Shown: positions 1-14,217 of the stretch, one piece after another
Layout of the letters: every line of letters begins with the position of its first letter
Position numbering within the stretch: the stretch's first letter is position 1
Source of the DNA: Bacteroidaceae bacterium
Lineage (GTDB): Bacteria; Bacteroidota; Bacteroidia; Bacteroidales; Bacteroidaceae
Length of the DNA stretch: 64,000 nucleotides
Reading direction: 5' to 3'
Assembly: GCA_017622495.1 (NCBI GenBank)
Contig: JAGAQY010000032.1
Location: forward strand, 1-64,000
Notes under the pieces: generated by a model
What the model was told of the DNA's origin: nothing
Seen by the model: only the letters and a program-made list of their open reading frames with translations
Database searches by the model: none
Program-made: the position numbers and the translations under genes

Positions 1-521
1 GGCAGGGGCACCTCGATCTCCTCTTCGCTCATCACGGCACGCTCTATGTCGCTGTCGGTGAGGTCGCGGCTCTTGCTCATGCGCTGCCGCTTGATGCGCT
101 GTGCCTCTATCTGCCGTTCGGTGCGCAGGCGCTCCTTGCGGCTCTCCTCGCGCACGCGGCGGTCGATGCTCTGGACGAGGGGCAGCAGCTCCGTCATGCG
201 TCCCTTGCCCGAAGCGGGCGAACCGTAGATGAGCGTCATCAGTGCCGTGCCATACTGGCGGTTGTCGTGCGCCACGCGGCAGTGTATGGTGGCTGTGCCC
301 AATAGTGTGAGCATGGCGAGGAGCTGCTGTGTGCGCAGGGCGCGGTCGGGGTAATGGGCCAGCACATCGGTGAGCAGCGGAGGCAGCGCCTCGAAGAAGC
401 TTTCGTCGAGTGGCAAGGGCAGGCAGTGGCCTGCATCGTCGGTGTAGGTACTCTGCTCTTCGAGCTGTTGGGGAATGTCGGCTGGGGAGCCGAGCAGGGC
501 GGTGAGTTCGTCGTTGGTCAT
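1..521 (-). CDS. DUF3987-like protein, 5' part only
   Basis: This is the first 173 codons of a minus-strand gene that runs off the left edge. It starts at ATG 519-521 with MTNDELTALL. After a leader of about 60 residues the reading includes a P-loop-like motif, IYGSPASGKGRM (near residues 98-109). A highly charged Arg/Glu-rich stretch follows (SIDRRVREESRKERLRTERQ). A glycine-rich nucleotide-binding loop followed by a charged helix is what I associate with the DUF3987 proteins of Bacteroides, which often sit beside small accessory genes and intergenic palindromes. The family is thought to be related to replication or primase-helicase functions, but no activity can be assigned here. Family assignment is from memory of the pattern and is moderate; the open frame is clear. 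Confidence 0.55.
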   Translation of the reverse strand, partial: MTNDELTALLGSPADIPQQLEEQSTYTDDAGHCLPLPLDESFFEALPPLLTDVLAHYPDRALRTQQLLAMLTLLGTATIHCRVAHDNRQYGTALMTLIYGSPASGKGRMTELLPLVQSIDRRVREESRKERLRTERQIEAQRIKRQRMSKSRDLTDSDIERAVMSEEEIEVPL

Positions 522-613
522 AATGTTTGAGTTTATAAGTTTTTTAGTTCTTTAGTTTGTAAGTTTTTTAGTTTCAATATCTTATCCCGTCGTGTACGGA
601 AAAACAGTTAAAG

Positions 614-698
614 AAAGTGCCAAATGGCACTTTCAGTGCCTTATCCGTCTGTGAATCATCGGATTGCAAAAGTGCCACGCCAAATGTTTTGGCACTTT
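614..698. repeat. Two related AAAGTGCC/GGCACTTT hairpins
   Basis: The 433-base gap 522-954 has no gene that I can see. It holds two versions of the same palindrome: AAAGTGCC(AAAT)GGCACTTT at 614-633, and AAAGTGCC...GGCACTTT at 669-698 with an inner CCAAA/TTTTGG pair. The flanks (about 527-585 and 805-875) are iterations of words such as AGTTTTTAAGTTTATAAG and their complements. Confidence 0.6.
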
Positions 699-718
699 CA
701 TAAATCCTCGGTTCTCGG

Positions 719-804
719 AAATCAGAGCCGTCCGATTTTTCCGCCGCAAGGCTCCGATAATTCTATCAAAAGGCTCTGATAAATCCATCGGACGGCTCTG
801 ATTT
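719..804. repeat. 18-bp perfect inverted repeat, 50-bp spacer
   Basis: AAATCAGAGCCGTCCGAT at 719-736 is repeated as its exact reverse complement at 787-804. The spacer carries two partial copies of the same word (GGCTCCGAT near 750 and GGCTCTGAT near 772). No open frame lies between the arms. Confidence 0.75.
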
Positions 805-907
805 TGAGTTTTTAAGTTTATAAGTTCATTAGTTTGTCAAACTCAAAAACTAAAGAACTCAAAAACTCAATTTCTATGCGAAGTAAGCCAATCTGCCGCG
901 CAACACC

Positions 908-945
908 AAAAAAATCACCGACGGGTGATATCTCGGTGATTTTTT
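908..945 (-). terminator. Bidirectional intrinsic terminator
   Basis: ATCACCGA/TCGGTGAT stem flanked by seven A on one side and six T on the other (908-921 with 933-945). It lies nine bases beyond the stop of the minus-strand gene at 955-1347 and most likely ends it. Confidence 0.8.
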
Positions 946-954
946 AACAATTGG

Positions 955-1347
955 CTATCGACACTCCAGCAACTCGTTGAGCATAGCCGCTATACGGTAC
1001 ATCCGTTCGTATGCCTGTAGGTTGATGCCATAGACGGTATCGTAGCGCCACTCCGCGAAGGGGCGCACATACATCGTGCGCGAGATGCCCTTCAGCGACT
1101 GGTAGCTGAGCGGCACGCGCCATTCCGCTGTAGGAAACACCTCCTCTATATAACAGCAGAAACCGCGGTAGTCTGTCCCATCAGGATAGATACCACGGTC
1201 TACCAATATGCGGAATATCGCCTGCCAGTGCACCTTGCGCGTGACGAGGTAACGCCCATCGGGCGTGCGGTATTGCAATAGCTTACTTAGGGCCTCCGCG
1301 ATGTCTGCAGCCCCCTCTCCTCTTGGAGAGGGATGGGGTGAGGCCAT
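955..1347 (-). CDS. Hypothetical protein; N-terminus made by a repeat
   Basis: An open frame of 130 codons that I do not recognise. From about residue 15 (ADIAEALSKLL) it looks like a genuine soluble domain, rich in Trp/Tyr/Arg (VHWQAIFRILVDRGIYPDGTDY ends one block, WRVPLSYQSLKGI another). The first 14 residues, MASPHPSPRGEGAA, are encoded by a REP-like hairpin (1313-1353); the SPRGEG peptide is a familiar by-product of such repeats. The real start may therefore have been lost or may lie in the small upstream frame at 1355-1447, whose coiled-coil sequence would suit an N-terminus of the same protein. It could be a functional truncated protein or the remains of a split gene. It has its own terminator. 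Confidence 0.5.
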   Translation of the reverse strand: MASPHPSPRGEGAADIAEALSKLLQYRTPDGRYLVTRKVHWQAIFRILVDRGIYPDGTDYRGFCCYIEEVFPTAEWRVPLSYQSLKGISRTMYVRPFAEWRYDTVYGINLQAYERMYRIAAMLNELLECR

Positions 1348-1353
1348 CCCTCT
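1313..1353. repeat. REP-like nested palindrome (SPRGEG type)
   Basis: CCCTCTCC(TCTT)GGAGAGGG at 1313-1332 overlaps a second palindrome, AGAGGGATGG...CCATCCCTCT at 1327-1353. The CTCTCC-hairpin-GGGGTGAGG pattern is a widespread bacterial extragenic palindrome type. Here it falls inside what was probably one coding sequence. Confidence 0.7.
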
Positions 1354-1354
1354 T

Positions 1355-1447
1355 TCATTTTTTTTCTAACTTCGCCAATCGGCTGTTAAGTTGTTCCACT
1401 TCACGTTCGAGCACGGTGATGCGTGCCAACAATTCTTTGTTGCCCAT
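1355..1447 (-). CDS. 30-residue coiled-coil ORF, likely 5' fragment
   Basis: ATG at 1445-1447 opens a 30-codon frame, MGNKELLARITVLEREVEQL followed by NSRLAKLEKK and TGA at 1355-1357. The heptad pattern of Leu/Ile/Val is a clean short coiled coil. It ends eight bases before the start of the 955-1347 frame and in a different phase. I read it as the original N-terminus of that gene, cut off by the REP-like hairpin. An independent micro-protein is possible. Confidence 0.4.
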   Translation of the reverse strand: MGNKELLARITVLEREVEQLNSRLAKLEKK

Positions 1448-1475
1448 AGTTCTATAATGATTAAAAATCGATTCT

Positions 1476-1507
1476 AAAAATCCCCACAGCCCTTAGAGCC
1501 GTGGGGA
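1476..1507 (-). terminator. Terminator of the RiPP operon
   Basis: On the minus strand CCCCACGGC pairs with GCTGTGGGG around a 7-base loop (1482-1506), followed by ATTTTT. It lies just beyond the stop of the last gene (1519) and closes the leftward operon. Confidence 0.85.
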
Positions 1508-1518
1508 AGCCGAAGTTA

Positions 1519-2010
1519 TTACTTCTTTTTACGTAAAAACAGTTTCTCAAACAGTGTAGGGTTCTCCAGCCTCACCCGTCCCAGCAAACCATATTTGTCG
1601 AGAAAGAGAGGATATATCTCCTCGTTGGGCCCGAAGCTGAGCTCCACGCTCTTCATCTTCATCATGTGGTCATACTTGGGGGTGGTGCTTGCGATGTAGC
1701 CCTTAAATTCGCATTGGATGTAGCGGTACAGGACAGGCATGCCCTCCTCCAGCTTCCACATGTCATGATCCTTGATGAAGGCCACGCCTGTGTAGTACCC
1801 ACCCGTAGAGTCACTGTACTCGCGCGTTACACGCGACTCCACCCACAGGTACTTGGGACAGCGGATGAAGCAGCTGGCCACAAGGAAGGCCACCGTCAGT
1901 CCGAAGATGATACCCAGCCCCCAGCGCACAGTCTTCGAAGGTATACGGCTCATCAGTTCCTGCACATCCTCGCTGTAGTCGTGCAGCTCCGGTAGTTCTC
2001 TTTTTTTCAT
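1519..2010 (-). CDS. Truncated HlyD-like adaptor of the RiPP exporter
   Basis: A 163-residue membrane-anchored protein, last gene of the RiPP operon. The start is ATG 2008-2010 (MKKRELPELHDYSEDVQELM); a longer reading would need TTG at 2037. The N-terminus matches the opening of Bacteroidetes HlyD/membrane-fusion proteins: a short cytoplasmic segment with SEDVQELMSRIP, then one membrane helix (about residues 30-52). Usual HlyD proteins have about 400 residues with a lipoyl domain and a long coiled-coil hairpin. Here the helix leads within some 25 residues into TGVAFIKDHDMWKLEEGMPV and EFKGYIAS, which resemble the membrane-proximal beta-barrel part, and the protein ends FEKLFLRKKK, like the normal C-terminus. 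The hairpin that would reach the outer membrane is missing. The role as partner of the C39 ABC exporter just upstream is inferred. Confidence 0.6.
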   Translation of the reverse strand: MKKRELPELHDYSEDVQELMSRIPSKTVRWGLGIIFGLTVAFLVASCFIRCPKYLWVESRVTREYSDSTGGYYTGVAFIKDHDMWKLEEGMPVLYRYIQCEFKGYIASTTPKYDHMMKMKSVELSFGPNEEIYPLFLDKYGLLGRVRLENPTLFEKLFLRKKK

Positions 2011-2041
2011 TGTAGTTTTGTATTTATGGTTCAACAATAGT

Positions 2042-4249
2042 TCAATTACCCAATTCCAGTTGGTTCTTCACCAGCGCATAGTACTCGCCGCGCCTCTCTA
2101 CCAGTTCGCGGTGCGTGCCCACTTCCACGATACGGCCTTTCTTCATCACCACTATCTGGTCGGCATTCATCACCGTACTCAGGCGGTGCGCCGCCACTAC
2201 CACTGTCTTGCCCTTGTAGAAGTCATACAGGTTGGTCATGATAAGGCGTTCGTTCGTGGCATCGAGAGCATTGGTGGCTTCATCGAAAAACAGGTATTCG
2301 GGATTCTTGTATATGGCACGCGCTATCAGTATACGTTGCCGCTGACCTTGGCTCACCCCGTTGCCCTCCATACCTATCTTGGTGTTGTACCCCATGGGCA
2401 TAGCCGAGATGAACTCATCGGCATTGGCCAGTATGGCTGCATCGTACATGCGCTCCACATCTATCTCGTCGGTGTCAAGTGCGATGTTTCGGGCTATTGT
2501 GTCAGAGAAGATGAAGCTCTCCTGCATCACCGACCCTGTGCGGCTGCGCCACAGGTGCGGGTTGATGGCATTGAGCGGCATACCGCCCACGCGTATGCTG
2601 CCGCTATTGGGAGTGTAGAATCCTTGCAGTAACTTTATCAGTGTTGACTTGCCGCAACCGCTCTCGCCCACCAGTGCCGTCACCTTCTGTTCGGGTATAT
2701 CAAGGTTGATGTCCTTTACGGCATAGTCGCGCTCGGCACCGCTGTAGCTGAATGTCAGGTTCTTGATTTCGATACTACGGTTCTTTGGCAGACGGCTCAT
2801 CTTCATATCAATATCGTGCTCCTCGTCCTCCTGTGCATGTATCTCGTTGAGGCGTTCAAGACTAATCTTTGCATCCTGCCACTTTTGCGCGAATCCTATG
2901 AAGTCGCGTATGGGTGCCGATACCTGTCCCAAGATGTAGGTAAGCGACATCATCATACCCAAGGTCATCTCACCGTTGACCACCGCGCGTGCAGCGATGT
3001 AGGTTGTCAGTATGTTGGTCGACTGGGTGAAGAATGCCGACCCCGTCTGCTGTATCTGTCCGATGGTGAGTCCGCGCACGCTGATCTTGAACAGCTTTAC
3101 CTGTATGCGCTCCCACTCCCATCGCTGCTGTTTCTCGCAGTTGTTGAGCTTGATGTCCTGCATACCCTGTATCATCTGTATCATCTTGCTCTGCTCGGTG
3201 GAAGCCTGATAGAAGCGCTTGATGTCGAGCTCCCTGCGGTAGCGCATGAAGTAGAGCACCCACAGCACGTAGAGCGTGTTGCCTACGGCGAATATCCCCA
3301 GTATGGTCAAGTTATAGTAGCCCAGCACAGCGGTGAAGACGAAGAAGTTGACGATGGAGAACACCATATTGAGCGAGTTGCCCATGAGCAGTGATTTGAT
3401 GCGTCCGTGGTCGCCTATGCGCTGCATGATGTCGCCCGTGCGTTTCGTGTCGAAGAAGTGGAGCGGCATGCTCATCAGCTTCATCAGGAAGTCCGAGATA
3501 AGGGCTATGTTGATGCGCGAACTCACATGCAGCATGATCCAGCTGCGTATATACCCCACCGAGAGCTGTACCACAAACAGTACCAATTGGGCAATGAGTA
3601 TGAGCGTAATGACATTCATGTCGCCCCCCTCGATGCCCCAATCCACCATAGCCTGTGTGAGGAACGGGAATATCAGTTGCAGCACACTGCCCACCAGCAG
3701 TCCCATCATCAGCTGCACAAACTGGCTCTTGTAAGGTTTCAGATAGCGGAGGAAGTAGCCCAGGCTATGCTTGCCGGTCACGATGTCGTCTTCGCGCTCG
3801 CCGAACTCCACACCTGGCTCCAGCATCAGAGCCGTACCGCAGTCGCATCCCTTCTCTTTCGTGCTTATCCAGCATTTGAGAAACTCCTTCTTGCTGAAGC
3901 AGAGCCTCTGTGTGGCTGGGTCGGAGATATAGATATCGTAATCCCCACTACGCCGTTTCTTGATTTTGTAACACACCACAAAGTGGTTCTGGTTCCAATG
4001 CAGTATGCAGGGGAACGTGCCGTCGCGCACAAGTTGCTCAAATGAGATCTTTACCCCCAGTGTATGGAAGCCGATATACTCGGCCGCATCGCTGATGCCC
4101 AGCATCGACACTCCTTCGCGCGATATGTAGCTGTGCTTGCGCAGCATCTCGGCCGAGTACATCTTGCCGTAGTGCTTGGCTATCATACGCAGACAGGTGG
4201 GGCCGCAGTCCACGGCCTCCTGCTGTTGATAGTGAGGGAACTTATCCAT
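2042..4249 (-). CDS. C39-peptidase ABC exporter (leader-cleaving)
   Basis: A peptidase-containing ABC transporter of 735 residues that should cut the precursor peptide after Gly-Gly and export it across the inner membrane. The N-terminal C39 domain shows the catalytic Cys in VDCGPTCLRMIAKHYG (C15), His in NHFVVCYKI (H89) and Asp in ISDPATQ (D110). A six-helix membrane domain spans roughly residues 155-440. The C-terminal ATPase has Walker A GESGCGKS, signature VSQGQRQR, Walker B YLFFDEA and switch AAHRLST. The start chosen is ATG 4247-4249 (MDKFPHYQQQE) rather than an upstream TTG. Length and domain order are normal for the bacteriocin-exporter type. It lies 12 bases after a glycosyltransferase gene and just before the short HlyD-like gene; no TolC gene is present in the window. 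Confidence 0.93.
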   Translation of the reverse strand: MDKFPHYQQQEAVDCGPTCLRMIAKHYGKMYSAEMLRKHSYISREGVSMLGISDAAEYIGFHTLGVKISFEQLVRDGTFPCILHWNQNHFVVCYKIKKRRSGDYDIYISDPATQRLCFSKKEFLKCWISTKEKGCDCGTALMLEPGVEFGEREDDIVTGKHSLGYFLRYLKPYKSQFVQLMMGLLVGSVLQLIFPFLTQAMVDWGIEGGDMNVITLILIAQLVLFVVQLSVGYIRSWIMLHVSSRINIALISDFLMKLMSMPLHFFDTKRTGDIMQRIGDHGRIKSLLMGNSLNMVFSIVNFFVFTAVLGYYNLTILGIFAVGNTLYVLWVLYFMRYRRELDIKRFYQASTEQSKMIQMIQGMQDIKLNNCEKQQRWEWERIQVKLFKISVRGLTIGQIQQTGSAFFTQSTNILTTYIAARAVVNGEMTLGMMMSLTYILGQVSAPIRDFIGFAQKWQDAKISLERLNEIHAQEDEEHDIDMKMSRLPKNRSIEIKNLTFSYSGAERDYAVKDINLDIPEQKVTALVGESGCGKSTLIKLLQGFYTPNSGSIRVGGMPLNAINPHLWRSRTGSVMQESFIFSDTIARNIALDTDEIDVERMYDAAILANADEFISAMPMGYNTKIGMEGNGVSQGQRQRILIARAIYKNPEYLFFDEATNALDATNERLIMTNLYDFYKGKTVVVAAHRLSTVMNADQIVVMKKGRIVEVGTHRELVERRGEYYALVKNQLELGN

Positions 4250-4261
4250 AAGCAATTGTGA

Positions 4262-5035
4262 TTAATCTAGGTGAAGACGCTGTTTGATTTCTTCGGTCGA
4301 ACTGTTTTCCGTTACGTGCAATTCATAAAACAGGCTACGCTTTTGCTGCTCTGAGTTATGCTTCCCATTCATGTTACGCGGATGCGACAGGTGATAAAGT
4401 ACTCCCTCAATTGTTTGTGTTCGATAGTCTAGATTGTTCCAACGTTCACAACGTTCCCAATCTTCTGGTCCCCATCCATAGAACAGTTCGTTTTCCATAC
4501 CGGCTTTCCGATACTTCTCAGTATTGACAATAAAAGCACCGCCACGCATGTTCGTCCCATAAATAAGACTCATCCGATGTTCGTATCGTGCCAGCATGTC
4601 AATATCTTTCTCTACGATATAACGCTCCCTTATCAACCGAGACAGATCCATAAATCGTCCATCATACGGGAAAGCGACTTCTACTTCGCCGCTACGCAGG
4701 ATTTCCATGGCAGCCACAACCTGTCCTGTAGGAAACACTACGTCAGCATCCCATACGGCAACATACGGAGTAGTTACACGCTCTACCATCTTATTTATGT
4801 AATAAGTGCGGTAATATACAGGGTCATAGTCCTCTATAAAGAGATACTCCACAGCTTTAGGTAGCAACCGCTGTACTATACCATTGTTATATTTGTCTGC
4901 TTCAAGCACTATAACATTAATGTCAAAGTGCTTGTAGAGGTATTCTACTACCGCCATCATATTCTCTAAACGTACCATCGAGTCTATGCGTATGGGAATC
5001 AGGACTGTCAAGTCTGTCAAATCAATCTTTTTCAT
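4262..5035 (-). CDS. Glycosyltransferase, GT-A fold, RiPP operon
   Basis: A 257-residue soluble glycosyltransferase of the GT2/galactosyltransferase kind. It opens with TVLIPIRIDSMVRLENM, carries a DxD metal/nucleotide-sugar motif in VAVWDADVVFP (near residue 95), and has the acceptor-side signature GGAFIVNTEKYRKAG...YGWGPEDWE (about residues 165-195), which resembles the GWGxED motif of beta-galactosyltransferases. There is no signal peptide or membrane helix, so it should act in the cytoplasm before export. It lies between the LanC-like gene (6-base gap) and the exporter gene (12-base gap), so glycosylation of the precursor peptide is the natural inference. Donor sugar and acceptor residue cannot be told. 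A role in surface glycan synthesis is less likely in this context. Confidence 0.75.
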   Translation of the reverse strand: MKKIDLTDLTVLIPIRIDSMVRLENMMAVVEYLYKHFDINVIVLEADKYNNGIVQRLLPKAVEYLFIEDYDPVYYRTYYINKMVERVTTPYVAVWDADVVFPTGQVVAAMEILRSGEVEVAFPYDGRFMDLSRLIRERYIVEKDIDMLARYEHRMSLIYGTNMRGGAFIVNTEKYRKAGMENELFYGWGPEDWERCERWNNLDYRTQTIEGVLYHLSHPRNMNGKHNSEQQKRSLFYELHVTENSSTEEIKQRLHLD

Positions 5036-5041
5036 CGTGTT

Positions 5042-6067
5042 CTATTTTTTTAGGTAGTCCATAAATAATATTGTACCGCAGAATCCTTGTAGCGAACGAT
5101 GTTTCTCAAAATACTCTTTCTCGCGGCTGGCTCTCTCCCAAGCTGAGGATTTCTCTATACGATGGAGCAACTCATGTTCATCACAAAATAGTTTCTCCTC
5201 AAGCAGTCGGTTGTAGGCTTGTATCAAGAGGTAAACAGCTATTACTCCATCCTGTGCAAAGATATTCTTGTCGTTCATCTCCTTGTACAATATATATTTT
5301 ATATCAATGGATCTACACAATGAGTCTGCAAACTCTTTCCACTCCGGCAGGTCCAATTCATCAGCAACCAAAGCGGCCACGTAAGCAAGCAACAGACGGT
5401 TCGCTTGTAGCATAGGACGTTGGGCAAATACGATGTAATGCATTTCACGCAAGATGAAGTTTATGCGCCTACGCTCTATCCCCATCCGATGCATTTGCAC
5501 CAGTGCCCATATATATTCACACAAAGGATATTGCATGGAAAACGGAAGTGGCTCTAAAAAGAAAGTCTCTGGACGGTTGATATAGATGTAGTTCATCAAT
5601 TCTATCATCAAGCGGCGCATTATCCAGCGTTCGTCTTCATCCTCCATGTCACGATAGCGTAGATTTACATATAGGAATATGTCAATCATCGGAACTGCCG
5701 CCTTATCTTTCATGTCCATATCCATTGCATTGCATATTGTGCGATAAATATGACAATCTATATTTTTTGCAACAACATTGATGTTTCCTGTAGAATATCC
5801 GTTACGGATCAAGTATGACAATGCCAATACAATGCCAGCCAACCCATTGGGTATGTCCAATGGAATTTGTGGTGTCAATCCTTGGTACAGTTCATCCAAC
5901 AGTTGATGCCCTTTTTGAGTATGCTCTGGAGATTTCAAGTTTCTGCCAGTTACATAATAATAGAGACACAGGCCAGCTTTTCCATTCAGCAGACCATAAT
6001 TTTCTACTTTTTTACCTTCATAGTTACTGTTTTCCAATAACCTTTCAATCAGTTCACGATGTTTCAT
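5042..6067 (-). CDS. LanC-like protein of the RiPP operon
   Basis: A 341-residue, mostly helical protein with the toroid-repeat look of the lanthionine synthetase C family: YGLLNGKAGLCLYYYV near the N-terminus, IPNGLAGIVLALSYL (about 75-90), and QGFCGTILFMDYLKK at the very end. In true LanC cyclases a zinc is held by two Cys and a His in WCYG and CHG motifs. Here the last motif reads FCG with no His, and no WCYG is visible, so the classical zinc site seems incomplete. No LanB dehydratase is encoded nearby. The protein may be a scaffold, a cyclase with altered chemistry, or a non-catalytic relative. Its start overlaps the stop of the outer-membrane gene upstream (ATGA, 6064-6067), which implies coupled translation. 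Confidence 0.7.
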   Translation of the reverse strand: MKHRELIERLLENSNYEGKKVENYGLLNGKAGLCLYYYVTGRNLKSPEHTQKGHQLLDELYQGLTPQIPLDIPNGLAGIVLALSYLIRNGYSTGNINVVAKNIDCHIYRTICNAMDMDMKDKAAVPMIDIFLYVNLRYRDMEDEDERWIMRRLMIELMNYIYINRPETFFLEPLPFSMQYPLCEYIWALVQMHRMGIERRRINFILREMHYIVFAQRPMLQANRLLLAYVAALVADELDLPEWKEFADSLCRSIDIKYILYKEMNDKNIFAQDGVIAVYLLIQAYNRLLEEKLFCDEHELLHRIEKSSAWERASREKEYFEKHRSLQGFCGTILFMDYLKK

Positions 6068-8373
6068 AAGTTCAATTCTTGTTTTTCGGTATCTGTAGTT
6101 GTCACATTGTTGTTCTTCCTTACCTTGCCACCGCCGATGGTGTAGCGGACGCTGAGTTTCACTCCAAAACTATTGTAGGTGATGTCGCTTATGCTTGTAG
6201 ATTTATAGCCGTCAAACGATATGGTGGAGAACGACTTGTGTGGAATCAGGTGGGGCGTAGCAATGACTTGGAGTGCTACGGGCATGCGGTTGTCAAGGAA
6301 CGAGCGACTGATGGTCAAGCCCGTCTGCTCGAAGATAAACTGCTTCTCTCCCTGAAGCAACGGTTGGTGCCTGTCCTCTATGGAGTAATAGGCGGCAAGG
6401 CGTAACTTTAGGGGCTTGACCTGATAGGACATACGGGTATAGGCCTGTGTAGAGCGGCTTTTTCGCATTGCGATACCGGGGGCTTCACGTTTATAAAGCC
6501 AGTACGAGCCACTAAGGTATAGATTCCACCCCTCGTCCTTGCCAAAATTATAGTCGCCGAAGAGGTTGAAGTGATGACTCGTCAGGTTACTATTGACGAG
6601 GGTCTCTTCGTATTCATTGGCCGACAGACGGCTATACCATGCGGAAATATCGTTCTTCGTATAGTCAAGCGTATAGGTGAAAGTTGCCCAGTTGTTCAGC
6701 TCGACACGTCCGAACACGTGGTGGTTTACACTCGGCAGCAGATTAGGATTACCTACGTGATGCATATAGTTGTTCATCTGCCAGCTGATGGGTGACAGCT
6801 GGTCGAGATTGGGATGTGTCACCGTGCAATTGTAGCGGGCATAGAGTTCGAGAATCTTCCACGGACTCCAATAGAGGCGGGTGTAAGGCATCAGTGAGGT
6901 ATGGGTATCGTTGCCTTTGCTGCTGTAGTTCTTCACATGGAGCAGCGAAGCGCCACCGCGCAAGTGCAGATGGTTACCGGGACGGTACGAGAGATTCGCG
7001 AAAAGATAGTTGCGATGGTTCTCCGAGGTGTAATGCTCGTCGGTTTCAGTCTTGCGGTTGGTATAGTCGCGGTAGTTGTACGAGTAGTCGGCATAGATCT
7101 TCCACGCATCGGTGATGCTGTATATGGTGTTGAGGTTGTAGCGGATGTCGTTCTTTTCGCCCGTATAGCTGCTCGTGCTTGTATACTCCTTGCCTTGGGC
7201 AAAGCGCTTGCGCTCCGTGATGTCGTACCGGTTATATGACAGGTCGCTCGTTACATTTAATCGCCCGAACAACTCACCACGGTAAAAGGCTCCCAGCGTG
7301 TAGTCATTGGTGCTATAGTTGTTGGAGGTCTCCTGCAGGAATCTGCGCATGCCTCTTTCGTCGGTCAGTGTCACATCGTAATCCGTCCCTTCGGCGTAGC
7401 CGCTCATCTTCGTCCAGGCCTGGATGGATAGCGAGTGTTTGCGGTTGAAGGCATAGTCGGCGCCCATAGTGAATGTGGCCCTACGCTCAAGCATGTCAAG
7501 ATTCGGGCCATCCAGCTCGTCCAATGGTGTAGAGCGTTCTACGGAAAGCCCTTCATACTCCTTCTCGTAGGCATTCACATCCCTGATCTTCACCTGCTTG
7601 TATGTTGACGAAGCAAACAGGTTCCACTTGTCTATCGAATAGGTGAAATCAGCTGTCGGCTGCACCTGATAGCCATGAATAGGCTTTATGTAGATGGTTC
7701 TTGGCGAGAAATCCCAGCCGATGTAGTCGCTGCGCAGTTCGAGGTTGACCACTACGTCATAGTCGGCATAGCGTCCGCTGGGATGCTCCATAATCTGTAT
7801 CTTATATATGCGTTTAGGGTTGAGATGCAGCGCATAGTCCTTGCCTTTGTTCACTCCATTGACCACCACAAGCACATTCTTCTCACCGTTGACCGTGATG
7901 TCGCCCGTTATCCAGTCTGACGTGACACCGTAGAGCTTGTCGAGCATCTGGGTGGCATAGGCCGTTCCCTTGCGTAACGAGTCGGTGACAAGGTAGCTCA
8001 CCATATCAGCATCGCGCTCGCTGAGACTGGCTGTTACCTCTACGTTGGCCAGCTGGTTGTCACTCGTGAGGGTGATGATGCCAAGGTCGGCAGGGAGTCC
8101 TTCGGCACGGTATATTGAGCAGGTCTTGTATCCTACATAGTCGATAAGTGCCCACACGGCTTGCTCCTCGATAGTTACGGAAAATCTACCGGCCGCATCG
8201 GTGATGCTGCCGCCCAGCAACAGGCTGTCGGCATCGAGTAGGCGCACCGTGGCATTCTCTATGACATTGTCGTCAAGTACGTCTTTAACTATGCCACGAT
8301 AGGTCTCGGCATGGAGCAGAGTCATTTCCCATGTCATAAGGAGGATTGCGAATATTCTTGTTCTGACGTTCAT
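6064..8373 (-). CDS. TonB-receptor-like outer-membrane barrel, RiPP operon
   Basis: A 769-residue outer-membrane protein. A signal peptide (residues 1-23, ending LLHAET) precedes a carboxypeptidase-regulatory-like beta-sandwich (about 24-105, IVKDVLDDNVIENATVRLLD). A plug-like region follows (about 125-215, VLVVVNGVNKGKDY, IYKIQIMEHPSGRY). The remainder is a long run of alternating aromatic strands typical of the large barrel family found in Bacteroidetes, ending in KQELNL. It is shorter than a SusC protein and has no SusD partner. Its position between the radical SAM and LanC-like genes is unusual. It may form the outer-membrane exit or re-uptake route for the peptide, or provide self-protection; none of these can be shown from the sequence. 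Confidence 0.8.
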   Translation of the reverse strand: MNVRTRIFAILLMTWEMTLLHAETYRGIVKDVLDDNVIENATVRLLDADSLLLGGSITDAAGRFSVTIEEQAVWALIDYVGYKTCSIYRAEGLPADLGIITLTSDNQLANVEVTASLSERDADMVSYLVTDSLRKGTAYATQMLDKLYGVTSDWITGDITVNGEKNVLVVVNGVNKGKDYALHLNPKRIYKIQIMEHPSGRYADYDVVVNLELRSDYIGWDFSPRTIYIKPIHGYQVQPTADFTYSIDKWNLFASSTYKQVKIRDVNAYEKEYEGLSVERSTPLDELDGPNLDMLERRATFTMGADYAFNRKHSLSIQAWTKMSGYAEGTDYDVTLTDERGMRRFLQETSNNYSTNDYTLGAFYRGELFGRLNVTSDLSYNRYDITERKRFAQGKEYTSTSSYTGEKNDIRYNLNTIYSITDAWKIYADYSYNYRDYTNRKTETDEHYTSENHRNYLFANLSYRPGNHLHLRGGASLLHVKNYSSKGNDTHTSLMPYTRLYWSPWKILELYARYNCTVTHPNLDQLSPISWQMNNYMHHVGNPNLLPSVNHHVFGRVELNNWATFTYTLDYTKNDISAWYSRLSANEYEETLVNSNLTSHHFNLFGDYNFGKDEGWNLYLSGSYWLYKREAPGIAMRKSRSTQAYTRMSYQVKPLKLRLAAYYSIEDRHQPLLQGEKQFIFEQTGLTISRSFLDNRMPVALQVIATPHLIPHKSFSTISFDGYKSTSISDITYNSFGVKLSVRYTIGGGKVRKNNNVTTTDTEKQELNL

Positions 8374-8407
8374 AGTGGGGTGATTTTTATGTGATTAATA
8401 TTTTTTC

Positions 8408-9700
8408 TTAGACGGTTATATGCTCGTTATGAATAACGCGCCAGCAATAATCCAATATGCGGTGCTCAAACAATGTGTCTGATTCTGCTAACCGGCATTT
8501 CGAACCATCAAGCATCGCTTTTGTGCGGCGTGCCGGGCAACCGCCATTACAGAGGGGAAAATATTGACAATCCCGACAAGGGCTATTCTCTGCCAGAATA
8601 TCTATATCCATAAATTCAGGTCGCTCTTCCCATACGATGCGCCCATCCTCATCAAGATGACCACGCAGTTCACTAAGAGAGTTATTGCCACATTTACCAA
8701 CTTTACCGTTGTAATAAAGCATATTATAATGTTTCATGTCTACATAGCATGGCGCAAACACCCCTTCTGTAAAGAATTTGTATCCGCTCTCGGCCAACCC
8801 GTGCTGTAGACCTATAAGGGCATCCATGGAAATTCTCTCTTCATCTATTTGCCAAACCTTTTGAAGGTCTATCTTTATCCGATGACGTAGTTCTTGTGGT
8901 ATAGCCGCATTCAACTCTGGCAAAAGTTCATCATCGGTTAATGTCTTGGGCGTATAATTAATACGAAGTGTTACACATGCTTGAAGATTGGTCTGAAGTA
9001 GATCCACTATGTTTCCCAAAGTCAGTCGAAAGGCTGATTCATGTATGTCGTCATATTTAATCTTGTCATGAGTCCGAGAACTTCCATCGATGGTTATTTG
9101 GTAATAGTTCACCTTCACCCTTCTTAGCATTTCTATCGTTTCATGTGTCAGTAATGCAGCATTAGTAGTGATACTTCCAACAAATCTTACGCCATGCTCT
9201 TTGCAATATTGTAATAAATAAGATGACAAATCTTCGATTGTTTGTGGCTCCATCAATGGCTCTCCACCAAACCAAGATAGAATATAGACCTTTATATCAT
9301 TTTCCTTTAGATACGTAGTTACATGTTTTTTGATCAGCTCCAGTTTTTCTTTTGACAAAACAGCCTTCTCATGTTTTTGGGTGCAATACCAGCATTTATA
9401 ATTGCAATTATAGGTCGGAAGCATAATCATTTTGTATATGGAAGAGTTTACGATGGACAATCTTTCTTCGCTAAGAATAGTTGATTCGTTCACATCGTCA
9501 TTATAAACGAAGTTACCAGCTTTCAACTTCTCTATTCTTGTTCCTTCAGTTTTCTCATAGTTGTCAGGGAATACCAATAATTTTGAATATGATTCAATAT
9601 CTTCGTCCTTTACGATAAAAAAGCGTTTACTGATTCCATTGAAAAATATACTTCTATTTGCATCAAACGGAACTATATATATGTACTTACCTGTTTTCAT
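8408..9700 (-). CDS. Radical SAM/SPASM peptide maturase
   Basis: A 430-residue radical S-adenosylmethionine enzyme that should modify the precursor encoded just upstream. Residues 1-90 are a leader-binding-like N-terminal part. The 4Fe-4S motif is CNYKCWYC (C99, C103, C106), followed by the GGEP motif (145-148) and other TIM-barrel elements (ITTNAALLT, ITIDGS). The C-terminal SPASM region has cysteines at 318, 337, 375, 378, 384, 388, 402 and 419, including CRDCQYFPLCNGGCP, enough for two auxiliary clusters. This is the layout of maturases that form thioether or C-C crosslinks in peptides, and of the group paired with Gly-Gly-leader precursors in Bacteroidales. The precursor's two cysteines make a thioether (sactipeptide/ranthipeptide-like) product attractive but unproven. 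A stem-loop separates it from the precursor gene. Confidence 0.92.
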   Translation of the reverse strand: MKTGKYIYIVPFDANRSIFFNGISKRFFIVKDEDIESYSKLLVFPDNYEKTEGTRIEKLKAGNFVYNDDVNESTILSEERLSIVNSSIYKMIMLPTYNCNYKCWYCTQKHEKAVLSKEKLELIKKHVTTYLKENDIKVYILSWFGGEPLMEPQTIEDLSSYLLQYCKEHGVRFVGSITTNAALLTHETIEMLRRVKVNYYQITIDGSSRTHDKIKYDDIHESAFRLTLGNIVDLLQTNLQACVTLRINYTPKTLTDDELLPELNAAIPQELRHRIKIDLQKVWQIDEERISMDALIGLQHGLAESGYKFFTEGVFAPCYVDMKHYNMLYYNGKVGKCGNNSLSELRGHLDEDGRIVWEERPEFMDIDILAENSPCRDCQYFPLCNGGCPARRTKAMLDGSKCRLAESDTLFEHRILDYCWRVIHNEHITV

Positions 9701-9719
9701 TTTAAATATTTATTAGAGA

Positions 9720-9746
9720 GTTTGTATGGATAGCGTCCATACAAAC
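9720..9746 (-). promoter_or_regulatory. Stem-loop between precursor and maturase genes
   Basis: GTTTGTATGGA (9720-9730) and TCCATACAAAC (9736-9746) form a perfect 11-bp stem with a 5-base loop. It begins 11 bases beyond the precursor stop and lies 19 bases before the maturase start. No strong T-run follows, so partial termination or mRNA stabilisation is likely. Such elements in RiPP operons raise precursor levels above enzyme levels. Confidence 0.75.
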
Positions 9747-9757
9747 CCTATTTAATG

Positions 9758-9922
9758 CTACTTCTGAGGGCAACTCAGATATATTGAGCACTCCCCAAAA
9801 ACATCTGTCGCATAGCTTCTACCTTGCTGTCCACCAATAATGTGGAGCATCTCTTTCTCTGACAACTGTACACCTTCAGCGAATGATGTACCTTGAAACT
9901 CTAATGAATTCAAAACTTTCAT
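9758..9922 (-). CDS. RiPP precursor peptide with Gly-Gly leader
   Basis: A 54-codon gene starting at ATG 9920-9922. The leader begins MKVLNSLEFQGTSF and ends LSEKEMLHIIGG, the double-glycine motif at residues 30-31 that a C39 exporter recognises. The 23-residue core starts QQGRSYATD and ends GECSIYLSCPQK, with Cys at 45 and 51 (a C-x5-C spacing) and Ser/Thr at 36, 39, 46 and 50. The gene sits immediately before the radical SAM/SPASM maturase and in the same operon as a C39 transporter, which is the expected place for a substrate. The leader resembles the Gly-Gly precursors of Bacteroidales that pair with radical SAM enzymes. The core sequence is not one I know. Possible modifications are a crosslink at the cysteines and glycosylation of Ser/Thr/Cys. 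Confidence 0.88.
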   Translation of the reverse strand: MKVLNSLEFQGTSFAEGVQLSEKEMLHIIGGQQGRSYATDVFGECSIYLSCPQK

Positions 9923-9974
9923 GATTTTTTTGTTTTTTAGATTGTTGATAAAATAATTTGATTAACACTATTCC

Positions 9975-10751
9975 CTATTTTAAGGGATGAAATAAAAGGC
10001 CTTTATTCTCTATTGATTGTATGTATTCCCTATCGTAGACGGGGCGATAGCGCATGGTGCCATTGTTGGTACCAGTATCAGAAATGTAATATCGATTACG
10101 AAACTCCGGCAGCACAAATTCGCCATGCCCACCTATATCTCCTACTGTATAGCCATGATTAAAAAGTGCCGTAGGCATCAACATCTCATAATGTCCGCTA
10201 TTGCCTTTTTTCAGATACTCATCCATAAACAGTAGAGCACGTGCCGAAAGGCGATATATCGGATTGAAAGACTTGATACAATGGATGGGAGATATCACCT
10301 CATCTTTCCACACAACAGGATGCCACCACCGCCAATCTGCATTCCGTGAAGTACGTCGCTCAATGTGCGAACTTATCAAATCGTTTTTAATACCTTCTAT
10401 GGATGCAAAGAAATCATACCAACTTCCTGTAAACGTCACATCATACTCTACAATCCAATAGTAATCATACTCGGGATGATCCAAGCCGAAGCGTTGCATC
10501 ACAAAATTCAGACTGCCAATCATCGTGTACGTAATGGCCGTATAGCCCAAAGCATTGAGCATGGTAGAATCGAAAAAGAAAAATCGAATATGATTGCTAC
10601 AAGCCAATGCTTGCTCTTTATCGCCACCCTCGGCATCGAACGCCCAGAAGAGTTCGTGATTGGGCGGTAGCTCGTGGCGCAGCTTCTCATACCGCGCCAC
10701 GATATCGTCATTGATGATGTGTGATACAAAGAGTACCGCTACCTTGTTCAT
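9975..10751 (-). CDS. Glycosyltransferase-like protein, RiPP operon
   Basis: A 258-residue soluble protein encoded just upstream of the precursor peptide gene. It begins MNKVAVLFVSHIINDDIVARY, has an acidic motif in YYWIVEYDVTFTGSW (near residues 100-114, an E-x-D of the kind that binds metal and nucleotide sugar), a Trp-rich stretch ADWRWWHPVVW (about 140-150), and GHYEMLMPTALFNHGY near 190. These features suggest a GT-A type glycosyltransferase distantly like the DUF3405 group, but the match is weak and from memory. It is not closely related to the other glycosyltransferase of the operon, so two different sugar transfers or a transferase plus a modified relative are possible. Gaps are 52 bases to the precursor and 7 bases to the DUF3244 gene. 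Confidence 0.6.
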   Translation of the reverse strand: MNKVAVLFVSHIINDDIVARYEKLRHELPPNHELFWAFDAEGGDKEQALACSNHIRFFFFDSTMLNALGYTAITYTMIGSLNFVMQRFGLDHPEYDYYWIVEYDVTFTGSWYDFFASIEGIKNDLISSHIERRTSRNADWRWWHPVVWKDEVISPIHCIKSFNPIYRLSARALLFMDEYLKKGNSGHYEMLMPTALFNHGYTVGDIGGHGEFVLPEFRNRYYISDTGTNNGTMRYRPVYDREYIQSIENKGLLFHPLK

Positions 10752-10758
10752 GATGGAA

Positions 10759-11139
10759 TCAGTCTATCGTAAATGTTCCGTGATATCTATCGCCATAGGC
10801 AGTCACCAAGGTAAGGGTGTAGCTACCAGCACCGCCACTGGCTATACTAATTTCGCCCATTCCATCGGCAGAATCCACCGTTCCCGACCAGTTATTTCCG
10901 ATAGTTGTATTTCGCACGCTTACCTCTACATCACCTACATTGTGCGTGAAGTCAAGAAAAATGGTCTCGCCCTGGTAGTAAGCCTCAAGAGGGATGATAA
11001 CAACTCCTCGTTCATCTCCATACCCTTTTTCAGGAGTGAGTACTATAGGCTTCTTAATAGGATTCTCGTCTTCAGCAAAGGCATTACCCACCATCACCAA
11101 TCCCATCAACAGGGAAAAGAAAAATACTTTTGTTTTCAT
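10759..11139 (-). CDS. DUF3244 secreted protein, first gene of RiPP operon
   Basis: A 126-residue exported protein. The start is ATG 11137-11139, giving a signal peptide MKTKVFFFSLLMGLVMVGNA ending FAED. The mature part is a small all-beta domain (VVIIPLEAYYQGETIFLDFT, then AGSYTLTLVTAYGDRYHGTF) that matches the DUF3244 pattern: a predicted Ig-like fold found in many short secreted Bacteroides proteins, with no known activity. It is the promoter-proximal gene of the operon, seven bases before the first glycosyltransferase gene. An immunity or carrier role for the exported peptide is conceivable because of this position, but nothing in the sequence proves it. Confidence 0.75.
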   Translation of the reverse strand: MKTKVFFFSLLMGLVMVGNAFAEDENPIKKPIVLTPEKGYGDERGVVIIPLEAYYQGETIFLDFTHNVGDVEVSVRNTTIGNNWSGTVDSADGMGEISIASGGAGSYTLTLVTAYGDRYHGTFTID

Positions 11140-11187
11140 TGCTTGTAAAAATTTAAGTTTGTGAATGATTTTGTTTGATTTCTGCGA

Positions 11188-11220
11188 CAAAGGTAGAGGG
11201 TTTTGTGTCCTCAAGACAAA
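11188..11220 (-). promoter_or_regulatory. Promoter of the RiPP operon
   Basis: On the minus strand TACCTTTG (11188-11195) matches the Bacteroidetes -7 consensus TAnnTTTG, and TTTG (11217-11220) lies 21 bases upstream as the -33 element. The predicted transcription start is near 11181, giving a 5' leader of about 40 bases before the DUF3244 gene. Confidence 0.75.
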
Positions 11221-11240
11221 GAAAAGGGCAAGAAATCGCC

Positions 11241-11360
11241 TTGCAAAGACCTTTGTAAACGATTGGTTTATTGCGCGTTATAACTTTGCAAGATTTTAAA
11301 ACCTTGCAGGTTGTAAATGACTGTTGTAAATCAATGCATTACAAACACGCTCTGCAAGGT
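11241..11360. promoter_or_regulatory. Candidate operator array, TTG(C/T)AA words
   Basis: Between the divergent RiPP operon and the TPR gene the words TTGCAA/TTGTAA recur on both strands: 11241, 11252, 11285, 11304, 11311, 11324, 11339 and 11353. They form TTGCAAAG/CTTTGTAA (11241-11258, one mismatch), the inverted pair ACCTTGCAG (11301-11309) and CTGCAAGGT (11352-11360), and direct repeats of TTGTAAAT at 11311 and 11324. Confidence 0.5.
11281..11288 (+). promoter_or_regulatory. -7 element for the TPR regulator gene
   Basis: TAACTTTG fits TAnnTTTG. No good -33 TTTG is found at 19-21 bases, which is common for regulated promoters. The start would lie near 11295, so the inverted repeat 11301-11360 would be in the transcribed leader of about 180 bases. 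Confidence 0.5.
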
Positions 11361-11471
11361 GGAGAAATGGATAAAAACAGCTGTTGATTGCTGATTTTGC
11401 AATATCATGCCAGCACATTTGCTTTATTGAATGGCTTTTTGTACTTTTACGGCAAGAAAAACCGACACCTT

Positions 11472-13169
11472 ATGAACACACGCAATACACTGCCACTGAT
11501 ATTGGTACTGATGATAGCTCTGCTCACGGGATGCACCAACCGCGCAGCGATGGAGGAGCTTGCATACTTGGAGACACGCATGGAGGCCAATGCCGACAGC
11601 GTGCGCACCGCACTGGCTGCCATGAATGGCAACCGGCTGCGTGGTGAAGCACGAGCCTTGCACGCCCTGCTCTATAGCCAGGCACTGGACAAGTGCTATA
11701 TAGACGTGACCAACGACTCACTGATAAGCATAGCCACAAAGTATTATCGCAAGGGGGATGAGCCGCTGCGTGCACTGCAGGCACTGTACTATCATGGGCG
11801 AGTGATGGAGAATGCAAAGGAGTATCATCAAGCGATAGCATTGTATACTGAAGCCGAACGGTATGCTGATGAAGTAGAAGTTCCTTATATAAAAGGGTTA
11901 CTATACGGTCATTTGGGGGCATTGTACTCACAAGACATAAACTACAAAAACGCTCTGGATTACAACAAGAAAGCCTATGAGTATTATGAAAAGGCTGGAC
12001 TCATGCGCCTGCAACACATCAAACTGAGGGATATAGGACTAATATATCTGTTAATGGAGCGTGTCAATGACGCAGAAATCTGTCTGAAAAAGGTCCTTGA
12101 CTGGGCTTATAAGAATCAGGATAGGAAGCTCTGTAAGACTTCAACGGAAAATCTGCTTTATCTCTATTATGTAACAGAAGATACTGCCTCTACAAGAAAA
12201 TTATATGAAGGAAAAGAGTACGAGTTATGCAAAGATGTACTTGAAGACGACCTTTATTTAGTCGATTACTTTGCTATGAAACAAGATGCAGACAGGGCAA
12301 AAATGCATTTAGAACAAACTTGGTTGCGGGCAAATACAATAAGTGACACGATAAAGGCATATCAAGTTGCATCTCATATGCATAAAAGATTAGGAAACTA
12401 CAAAGAAGCTTTAGATTACCATATCGAGTTGTTGCGCATACAGAACGAAGAATTACGCCATACTTTGGAACAGCCCTTACTTGCCGCGCAACGCGACTTC
12501 CTGCAAAACCAAAATGAGTTGACAGAGGTGAAGCTGCAGAAAAGCCGACAGGCGATATTTTTCATCTGTGTGGTGGCCATACTGGCAATAGCCATCATCA
12601 TTATAGTATCGCGCACACGCGCACGAAAGAAACGTGAGGAGCTGGACGGCTACGTGAACCTCACCGAAGACCTACAACGATCGCTATACAGCAAGGAGGA
12701 GGCGATAAGCCGTATGGGAGAACAGCTACAGCTGCAAGATGAGCAGGCACGCACCATGAACACACGACTGGCCGACCTCATGCGAGGACGATACGAGCTG
12801 CTCAACGAACTTACCAACACCTACTATGAGACCAGCGGAAGCAAGGCCGACCGCGAAGCCATATACCAGAAGGTGAAGAAGGCCATAGACCGCATGGCAG
12901 GAAACCGCAAGGAGATGCAAGAGCTGGAGAGCATTGTCAACGAATACTGCGACAACGCCATGGCACACATACATGCCGAACTGCCCGAGCTGCCCTACGA
13001 CGACACGGTGCTGCTCTGCTACATCTATGCCGGATTCTCGGCCAAGGCCATACACCTGTTTACCAAGAACAGCATATCGAACATCTACTCACGCAAGTCG
13101 CGCCTGAGAGAGCACATCAAGCAATCTGACGCGCCCCACCGCCAGCAATTGCTGGATATGATGCCATAA
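11472..13169 (+). CDS. Membrane-tethered TPR lipoprotein, likely regulator
   Basis: A 565-residue protein started at ATG 11472 (MNTRNTLPLILV), which gives a lipoprotein signal ending LLTGC (C21). The periplasmic half (about 60-350) is a series of tetratricopeptide-type helical pairs, for example EPLRALQALYYHGRVMENAKEY. One membrane helix follows (about 361-380, FFICVVAILAIAIIIIVS), then a charged coiled coil (RKKREELDGYVNLTEDLQ). The C-terminus, about 490-565, ends in a small helical domain (VLLCYIYAGFSAKAIHLFTK, then NSISNIYSRKSRLREHI) that looks like a helix-turn-helix. This layout, sensor outside and putative DNA-binding domain inside, recurs in Bacteroidetes TPR regulators. It is divergent from the RiPP operon across a gap full of repeated motifs, so it probably controls that operon. 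The middle of the gene is more AT-rich than its ends. Confidence 0.75.
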   Translation: MNTRNTLPLILVLMIALLTGCTNRAAMEELAYLETRMEANADSVRTALAAMNGNRLRGEARALHALLYSQALDKCYIDVTNDSLISIATKYYRKGDEPLRALQALYYHGRVMENAKEYHQAIALYTEAERYADEVEVPYIKGLLYGHLGALYSQDINYKNALDYNKKAYEYYEKAGLMRLQHIKLRDIGLIYLLMERVNDAEICLKKVLDWAYKNQDRKLCKTSTENLLYLYYVTEDTASTRKLYEGKEYELCKDVLEDDLYLVDYFAMKQDADRAKMHLEQTWLRANTISDTIKAYQVASHMHKRLGNYKEALDYHIELLRIQNEELRHTLEQPLLAAQRDFLQNQNELTEVKLQKSRQAIFFICVVAILAIAIIIIVSRTRARKKREELDGYVNLTEDLQRSLYSKEEAISRMGEQLQLQDEQARTMNTRLADLMRGRYELLNELTNTYYETSGSKADREAIYQKVKKAIDRMAGNRKEMQELESIVNEYCDNAMAHIHAELPELPYDDTVLLCYIYAGFSAKAIHLFTKNSISNIYSRKSRLREHIKQSDAPHRQQLLDMMP

Positions 13170-13311
13170 CAACGGACACACGTAATACCGAGTCGGGCGC
13201 ATCGTTCACACATGCTTCTAGCCGCTCCAACTCACGCATGGAAAGGCGACCGCCACACCCCATGCAGAGGGTAGCGAGAAGAAGGGTGTATATCACGGTG
13301 CGGAGCTTCAT
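13117..13311 (-). pseudogene. Truncated TPR-regulator lipoprotein gene
   Basis: A 64-codon frame, MKLRTVIYTLLLATLCMGCG then RELERLEACVNDAPDSVLR, starting 7 bases after the SusC/D operon's third gene. The lipobox and the segment LERLEACVNDAPDSVLR align with LAYLETRMEANADSVRTAL at the start of the intact TPR gene at 11472-13169, so this is the 5' end of a paralogous regulator. Homology stops near 13171, exactly where the intact gene on the other strand ends (stop 13167-13169); the last 17 or so codons are antisense to that gene and meaningless. A deletion that fused the two convergent genes explains the picture. Confidence 0.7.
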
Positions 13312-13317
13312 GGTGTG

Positions 13318-14217
13318 CTAATAACCTTGATTCTTCAATATGCGTGCTTCGTCCTCGCTAATCCACTCGACGGCATTGATGAAGGTGCCCACAACGTTGG
13401 TCCCTTCGGCCATGCCGGGTACCCATACGGTCATGTACTGGAAGATGAACTTCTCGCACGAGCTGTAATAGCTCACGAGCGATGAGGGCTGGTAGGCGTG
13501 GAGCATGCCGTCGCCATAGATGGTGCCGAAGGCTTCACCGGTGGTGGCCATGGTCTGGTCGTCCATCTCGATGAGCGGATTGAGCATATCTTCGGTAGTG
13601 AAGCGCACCTTCATGTCGTAACCGTCGTAGAAGTAGTCGTGAAGGATGACCGCAGTGGAATCTTCAGGGTCGACCTCCGTCGTTATCAGACGCATATCCT
13701 TTATCGAGTAGTCCATCAGGAAGGTAGATGTCACTACGGCATAGCCGGTGAAGGCGTTGATATCGAACGGGCATATCTTACGCAGGATGACCTTAGTCTC
13801 GTTGCCCTCGTAGAGGCTCCACTGGACATCGTCATCGGTAATCAGGCGAAGCACCAGCGTAGGGTCTTCGTCAATAGTCAGGTTATCATAGATGGCATGT
13901 ACGCGCACACTCGTAGCCAGCTCGCCAGCCTTGATGACCACGGTATTGGACTCCAATGTGTAATGGACTCCCTCGATGGCACTGCTCTCCTTGTCGACCA
14001 CCTCCACGGCAAGCGTGCGGTCTTTGTCGCTGGCTTGTGTGGCCGCGATATGAATGTCGAAAACCTCTTCGCTGTTCTCTACACCCAATACCGAGAGGGT
14101 ATCGGCAAACATGATGTAGAGCGGCCCGTCGTATACGGTGCGCTGCTCCTCACAACTGGTCAGTCCGGCAAGCATCACGAGCGATGCCACCATGCCGAGA
14201 AATATCTTCTTGTTCAT
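13318..14217 (-). CDS. SusD-operon surface lipoprotein, DUF4843/4984-like
   Basis: A 299-residue lipoprotein: MNKKIFLGMVASLVMLAGLT then SCEE, with the lipidated Cys at 22. The first half (about 35-150) has a Calx-beta-like pattern (SEEVFDIHIAATQASDKDRT, VHYTLESNTVVIKAGE). The second half is an unrelated beta-rich domain ending VGTFINAVEWISEDEARIL. Proteins of this design commonly follow SusC and SusD in Bacteroides and help to bind the ligand on the cell surface. It lies 15 bases downstream of the SusD gene. The exact Pfam family is uncertain. Confidence 0.65.
   Translation of the reverse strand: MNKKIFLGMVASLVMLAGLTSCEEQRTVYDGPLYIMFADTLSVLGVENSEEVFDIHIAATQASDKDRTLAVEVVDKESSAIEGVHYTLESNTVVIKAGELATSVRVHAIYDNLTIDEDPTLVLRLITDDDVQWSLYEGNETKVILRKICPFDINAFTGYAVVTSTFLMDYSIKDMRLITTEVDPEDSTAVILHDYFYDGYDMKVRFTTEDMLNPLIEMDDQTMATTGEAFGTIYGDGMLHAYQPSSLVSYYSSCEKFIFQYMTVWVPGMAEGTNVVGTFINAVEWISEDEARILKNQGY

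Follow-up and report, generated by a model that had tools for sequence, protein, structure and literature searches.

A 54-codon gene beside a radical SAM/SPASM maturase in a Bacteroidaceae bacterium very probably encodes a RiPP precursor

The thioether synthase CteB makes a Cys-Thr gamma-thioether and binds the leader of its substrate through an RRE (PMC8326336). CteA/CteB and the ranthipeptide/sactipeptide synthases likewise have the architecture of RRE, radical SAM domain and full SPASM domain that we find, with the RRE predicted, in the maturase described here. At the same time, CteB is only about 17% identical to our maturase in structural alignment, and the adjoining peptide lacks a SCIFF-type six-Cys core. 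The GG-Bacteroidales systems (TIGR04149 precursor, TIGR04148 maturase, TIGR04150 pseudo-rSAM, TIGR04157 glycosyltransferase) have the same leader type as our locus and, like it, LanC-like and glycosyltransferase (GT) partners and a C39 exporter; our locus differs in that its maturase is not TIGR04148, it has no pseudo-rSAM, and its precursor lies under the TIGR04149 cutoff. The Bacteroidales RiPP clusters of Fernandez-Cantos et al. 2023 (PMC10352776), in the portion of that paper considered here, also combine a radical SAM (rSAM) protein with a PCAT exporter, GG leaders, GTs and LanC-like proteins without zinc ligands, and those that contain LanC carry pseudo-rSAMs; a hairpin downstream of the precursor and a fixed exchange slot, the former reported and the latter proposed below, are not described in that portion. 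Our cluster is a further variant among Bacteroidales rSAM RiPP clusters already known as a type, a type predicted in large numbers whose products are uncharacterised in the literature we found.

The precursor gene, its leader and the maturase

In the window, by which we mean the whole 64,000-nt stretch of DNA analysed, the locus comprises the following features. Its minus-strand genes, from DUF3244 (10759..11214) through to the 172-aa protein (1519..2037), make up one operon, and the TPR gene is divergent from it.

1519..2037, minus: one-TM protein of 172 aa, a candidate for a short membrane-fusion-like protein, forming the right frame of the slot; homologues in the G008, G012 and G006 slot (sister species, see below)
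2042..4255, minus: C39-peptidase ABC exporter (PCAT); PF03412, PF00664, PF00005; Cys17, His91 and Asp112 motifs
4262..5035, minus: galactosyltransferase-like protein (Glyco_transf_7C); PF02709
5042..6067, minus: LanC-like alpha/alpha-toroid protein without zinc triad; PF05147, E 7e-6
6064..8373, minus: outer-membrane beta-barrel protein (OMP_b-brl_3); PF14905; present in related clusters
8408..9700, minus: radical SAM/SPASM peptide maturase with N-terminal RRE-like domain; PF04055
9717..9749, minus: 14-bp hairpin between the precursor and maturase genes; -18.6 kcal/mol, z -7.5
9758-9922, minus: precursor ORF, ATG to stop, 54 aa; MKVLNSLEFQGTSFAEGVQLSEKEMLHIIGG|QQGRSYATDVFGECSIYLSCPQK
9758..9829, minus: core, residues 32-54, QQGRSYATDVFGECSIYLSCPQK, plus stop codon; assigned from sequence; C-[ST]-x(2,4)-C motif
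9830..9922, minus: leader, residues 1-31, with C-terminal end LSEKEMLHIIGG; TIGR04149 match 1-33; leader kept in related-cluster peptides
9975..10751, minus: DUF3405 protein, GT-like, last gene of the slot's left frame; PF11885; invariant E102 and D104
10759..11214, minus: small DUF3244 protein with signal-like N-terminus; PF11589
11388..13169, plus: TPR protein, divergently oriented; lipoprotein-like signal, one TM; TPR matches, the best (PF13424) just under cutoff

The sequence-only reading had described a 54-residue ORF at 9758-9922 with Cys45, Cys51 and four core Ser/Thr, all of which the translation confirms (the 23-residue core holds, besides the two Cys, Ser36, Thr39, Ser46 and Ser50). 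Its placing of this ORF between a glycosyltransferase and a maturase holds as well: the ORF begins 52 bp after the DUF3405 gene, whose GT-like product has a conserved E-x-D, and ends 57 bp before the radical SAM gene. A strict leader pattern was found in one of the 300 small ORFs of the window and in none of 40 simulated 64-kb sequences, and for a looser pattern 0.28 chance occurrences are expected per 64 kb; the only leader-type ORF in the window is the one that abuts the maturase gene. When searched as a profile, TIGR04149 (GG_sam_targ_CFB), the family to which the leaders of GG-Bacteroidales rSAM peptides belong, matched precursor residues 1-33 with 21.5 bits (E 1.6e-4), which is below the curated cutoff of 25 bits and so stops short of family membership, and this is the best TIGR04149 match of the whole genome. 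The leader end LSEKEMLHIIGG together with a PF03412 exporter and its triad motifs marks a double-glycine leader exported by a PCAT, and, judging from sequence, the C39 exporter should cut after GG.

The adjoining maturase has what is expected of an rSAM/SPASM enzyme acting on this peptide, namely CxxxCxxC, a seven-Cys SPASM domain and a predicted RRE. Its SAM-cluster cysteines (C99, C103, C106) and SPASM cysteines (C318, C337, C375, C378, C384, C388, C402) are invariant in 14 homologues. In the AlphaFold2 model (pLDDT 86), three strands plus helices make up an N-terminal domain, which on this basis is predicted to be an RRE-like, CteB-like peptide-recognition domain. CteB is both the best PDB sequence match (5wgg, E 5e-12) and the top Foldseek match of the model; VIA-align gave nearly full-length alignments with CteB (5why_A, Z 18.8 over 374 residues) and TigE (8vpo, Z 18.9 over 371 residues) and ranked ChlB (9gm3_A, Z 19.2) first, aligned without the N-terminal domain, the three Z values being tied. 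Among the matches listed, the maturase was above the cutoff of no NCBIfam maturase model. TIGR04148 had sub-cutoff matches only in the whole genome, all on other contigs and none at the precursor locus; the TIGR04148 system was ruled out as the identity of this cluster because the maturase has no TIGR04148 match.

Related peptides, the hairpin and the tailoring genes

Relatives were sought in the family, the order and named genomes, and peptides were taken from beside maturase homologues. A conserved leader and a variable core had been predicted from the window alone, and this is what the comparison returned: among peptides encoded next to homologous maturases the leader is retained while the core varies, with 52% mean pairwise identity over the last 14 leader residues and 10% over the first 14 core residues (eight peptides). 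The window's maturase and its five closest relatives form a clade of six with support 99/99 (the window, Segatella copri iA622, a roe deer Bacteroides MAG, B. timonensis and two Prevotella/Bacteroidaceae genomes), and the clade's peptides end in ECSIYLSCPQK, KCTFIICF, RCTDNCSI, KCTWFCS, KCTWFC and KCTWFCG, all of which contain C-[ST]-x(2,4)-C. Peptides at the five closest maturases end in C-[ST]-x(2,3)-C, of which the window's C-S-x4-C is a longer version, and outside the clade a C-x(4,7)-C spacing recurs. In the peptides of the closest maturases the number of Cys is mostly five, in short-spaced arrays, and no feature but Cys is common to all their cores, a sign that Cys is the residue that is modified. 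The core itself yielded no homologue, and tblastn with the whole precursor against 14 related loci gave no match; no maturase relative was found in viral contigs, and plasmids yielded only remote radical SAM proteins (at most 29%).

The S. copri iA622 cluster (L039/L021) has the same order of GT, precursor, maturase, OMP, LanC-like, Glyco_transf_7C and PCAT genes. Its precursor, of 47 aa, ends in KCTFIICF. It differs in the C-x4-C of the precursor core, in a maturase only 38% identical, and in having no 172-aa gene after the exporter. Other arrangements were seen in passing: one Prevotella cluster (L037 15846-19478) has a second precursor CNPWSDCDAWNCAPDCQC, a second maturase and a further gene after the exporter, as does L038; L022 12905-13192 encodes a repeat-type precursor core of nine near-identical 7-residue units (GSGCADA); and the window's own genome holds, on another contig (C7; L026 5582-7153), a second maturase of the wider family with a GG peptide bearing NCDC/NCNC motifs.

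The conserved leader and variable core, together with a maturase and a GG-cleaving exporter that have their key residues, support the precursor reading, and the 54-codon gene is real and, very probably, encodes a RiPP precursor.

The gap between the precursor and maturase genes also holds a hairpin, unrelated in sequence, in S. copri, L035, L036, L037, L040, L044 and other clusters. A z below -3 was seen in 11 of 13 gaps after the precursor versus 2 of 19 other gaps (12 clusters; Mann-Whitney p ~1e-5, an optimistic value, some of the loci being closely related). A strong U-tract is absent from the window's hairpin, and Rfam gave nothing at the gathering threshold in 1-14000; a literature search turned up nothing useful on precursor-downstream hairpins or on TigE. 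This is the pattern to expect if an attenuator, or a stabiliser of the transcript 3' end, holds the peptide message above that of the enzymes, and the hairpin is a candidate for either role. It indirectly supports the earlier guess, likewise drawn from the letters of the DNA, that the peptide gene is highly expressed and is the most abundant part of the operon in the transcriptome. Such a hairpin is also a simple marker for spotting missed precursors.

The LanC-like/Glyco_transf_7C pair occurs also in S. copri, G089, G359 and G378, and beside other maturases in L068 and L069 (both with C-x6-C peptides) and L070, which makes it a tailoring pair that goes with more than one maturase. In two of these Bacteroidaceae loci (L068 11180-12445, L069 11352-12614) a transglycosylase-domain protein (PF00912) follows the pair. 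Homologues of the TPR protein, a candidate regulator, were found in 15 of 29 related loci by one-sequence search. DUF3244 proteins recur beside precursors, and the window's may be an immunity protein. The 172-aa one-TM protein matched no family in profile searches.

Proposed pathway and alternative readings

In the pathway that we propose, the N-terminal domain of the maturase would bind the leader, and 5'-deoxyadenosyl radical chemistry with two SPASM clusters would join Cys45 and/or Cys51 to carbons of nearby residues, to form thioether rings of the kind made by CteB-type enzymes. A sugar may be put on a core Ser or Thr by the glycosyltransferase and LanC-like proteins (although the glycosyltransferases could act on a substrate other than the precursor), the C39-ABC exporter would cut after GG31 and release a 23-residue product, and the hairpin would hold the level of peptide transcript above that of enzyme transcript. 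Taken as a whole, the locus is best explained as encoding the precursor of a peptide that is modified by a radical SAM enzyme and secreted, an explanation that we hold with high confidence; cross-link, glycosylation and bioactivity of the product we infer. From the likeness to CteB, a thioether is the most likely outcome for the window's peptide. On the residues themselves, Cys45 and Cys51 may be linked in one macrocycle, in two thioethers or in a disulfide. Ser46 cannot give a CteB-like Cgamma-Thr link, and core conservation names no acceptor, only C-[ST] near the C-terminus being common to the cores. With two Cys in 23 residues the core is unusually simple, which should make the chemistry of the maturase easy to read.

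The alternative that survives best keeps the precursor but has Cys45 and Cys51 form a disulfide, with the maturase performing a carbon-carbon cross-link, epimerisation or oxidation. Two Cys at C-x5-C spacing would suit a disulfide formed after export, and SPASM enzymes have many chemistries, with TigE, ChlB and SuiB all among the structural matches; at the same time, the best PDB sequence match is a thioether synthase and the peptides of the closest maturases single out Cys, so that we regard this reading as unlikely, if the most serious of its kind. A GG-leader bacteriocin that carries no modification, or only glycosylation, with the maturase acting on some other peptide, is distinctly improbable. 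Two GT-like genes and a C39 exporter in the same operon would fit such a product, and bacteroidetocins, which are unmodified GG-leader bacteriocins, are known in Bacteroidales (PMC10352776, in the portion considered), but the window offers the maturase no second leader-type ORF, and the order precursor-hairpin-maturase recurs in about ten related clusters.

A lanthipeptide, in which the LanC-like protein would form lanthionine from core Ser/Thr and Cys, is suggested by the LANC_like match and by a core that has these residues. The zinc triad (C...CH) is not conserved between the window and S. copri proteins, however, and no operon protein matches a Ser/Thr dehydratase (LanB/LanM), the one weak LanM match being the LanC-like part; the LanC-like model (pLDDT 65) had Foldseek matches at E >= 0.1, to the alpha/alpha toroid only. 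Lack of the zinc ligands is reported for other Bacteroidales LanC-like proteins too (PMC10352776, same portion). With zinc ligands and dehydratase both missing we rejected this reading, which we consider extremely improbable. Hardly any weight falls on a chance ORF without a product, to which its shortness and the lack of a core homologue might point, given the conserved leader, the conserved place beside a maturase, the hairpin and the failure of the strict pattern to arise in simulation.

A chromosomal slot in sister species

Sister species have flanking DNA in common with the window and differ in the middle, in a small sample of one genome per species from partly incomplete assemblies. The frame genes are TPR, DUF3244 and DUF3405 on one side and the 172-aa membrane protein on the other, DUF3405 being 77-78% identical (aa) in G012 and G008. 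In the comparison with G008, the stop codon of DUF3405 (9975) is the exact point at which nucleotide similarity breaks off; identity is just 65% for the exporter and 83% for the 172-aa gene (up to 2037). G008 carries an unrelated module, with a different maturase (36%, split in two frames) and a Cys/Ser/Gly-rich precursor. The split maturase (L025 4568-5835) is either a decayed gene or an assembly error. G012 has in this slot its own GG precursor together with a maturase that matches TIGR04148 (519 bits), a pseudo-rSAM that matches TIGR04150 (349 bits) and a glycosyltransferase whose TIGR04157 score, 386 bits, narrowly misses the cutoff of 400. Its proteins compare with the window's at 98% for the exporter, 77% for DUF3405, 68% for the 172-aa protein and 32% for Glyco_transf_7C. 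At the DNA level, identity of about 50% gives way to more than 90% where the exporter starts (near 4250) and drops again inside the 172-aa gene (near 1900); gyrB of the two species is 89% identical. In G006 the slot has no RiPP, its place being taken by a 951-aa protein without a Pfam match (L095 3598-6453).

The window also has a 64-aa ORF (13117-13311, minus), arranged tail to tail with the TPR gene 11388-13169, which is intact. The DNA of this ORF is 78-80% identical to the TPR gene starts of G012 and G002, and the ORF may be what is left of an earlier regulator that was displaced by a change of slot content.

The simplest reading of the slot contents is that modules are exchanged through recombination in common frame genes; in so small a sample, with partly incomplete assemblies, some cases may instead reflect vertical divergence with loss. 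These data suggest a fixed site at which sister species trade RiPP modules, so that related gut bacteria may differ mainly in the peptide they secrete. For the product, a narrow-spectrum bacteriocin or a pheromone is the most likely role. An antagonistic peptide is in keeping with C39 export, with cores that vary on leaders that do not, and with exchange among closely related species; a self-sensed pheromone would also agree with the TPR membrane protein that recurs at these loci. More tentatively, and with rather more doubt than belief, we propose that in this genus the slot is a cassette dock through which species exchange whole rSAM-RiPP modules that differ in maturase class, and that the module of the window makes a glycosylated, thioether-ringed 23-residue peptide of an undescribed chemical type.

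If modules are indeed traded, these bacteria would resemble pneumococci and their bacteriocin locus. In the pneumococcal blp locus, fixed frame genes surround exchangeable peptide modules, and the window's slot appears to have the same combination of fixed frame and exchangeable modules; blp, however, is Gram-positive and encodes unmodified bacteriocins, whereas the slot described here exchanges the maturase as well and sometimes the exporter.
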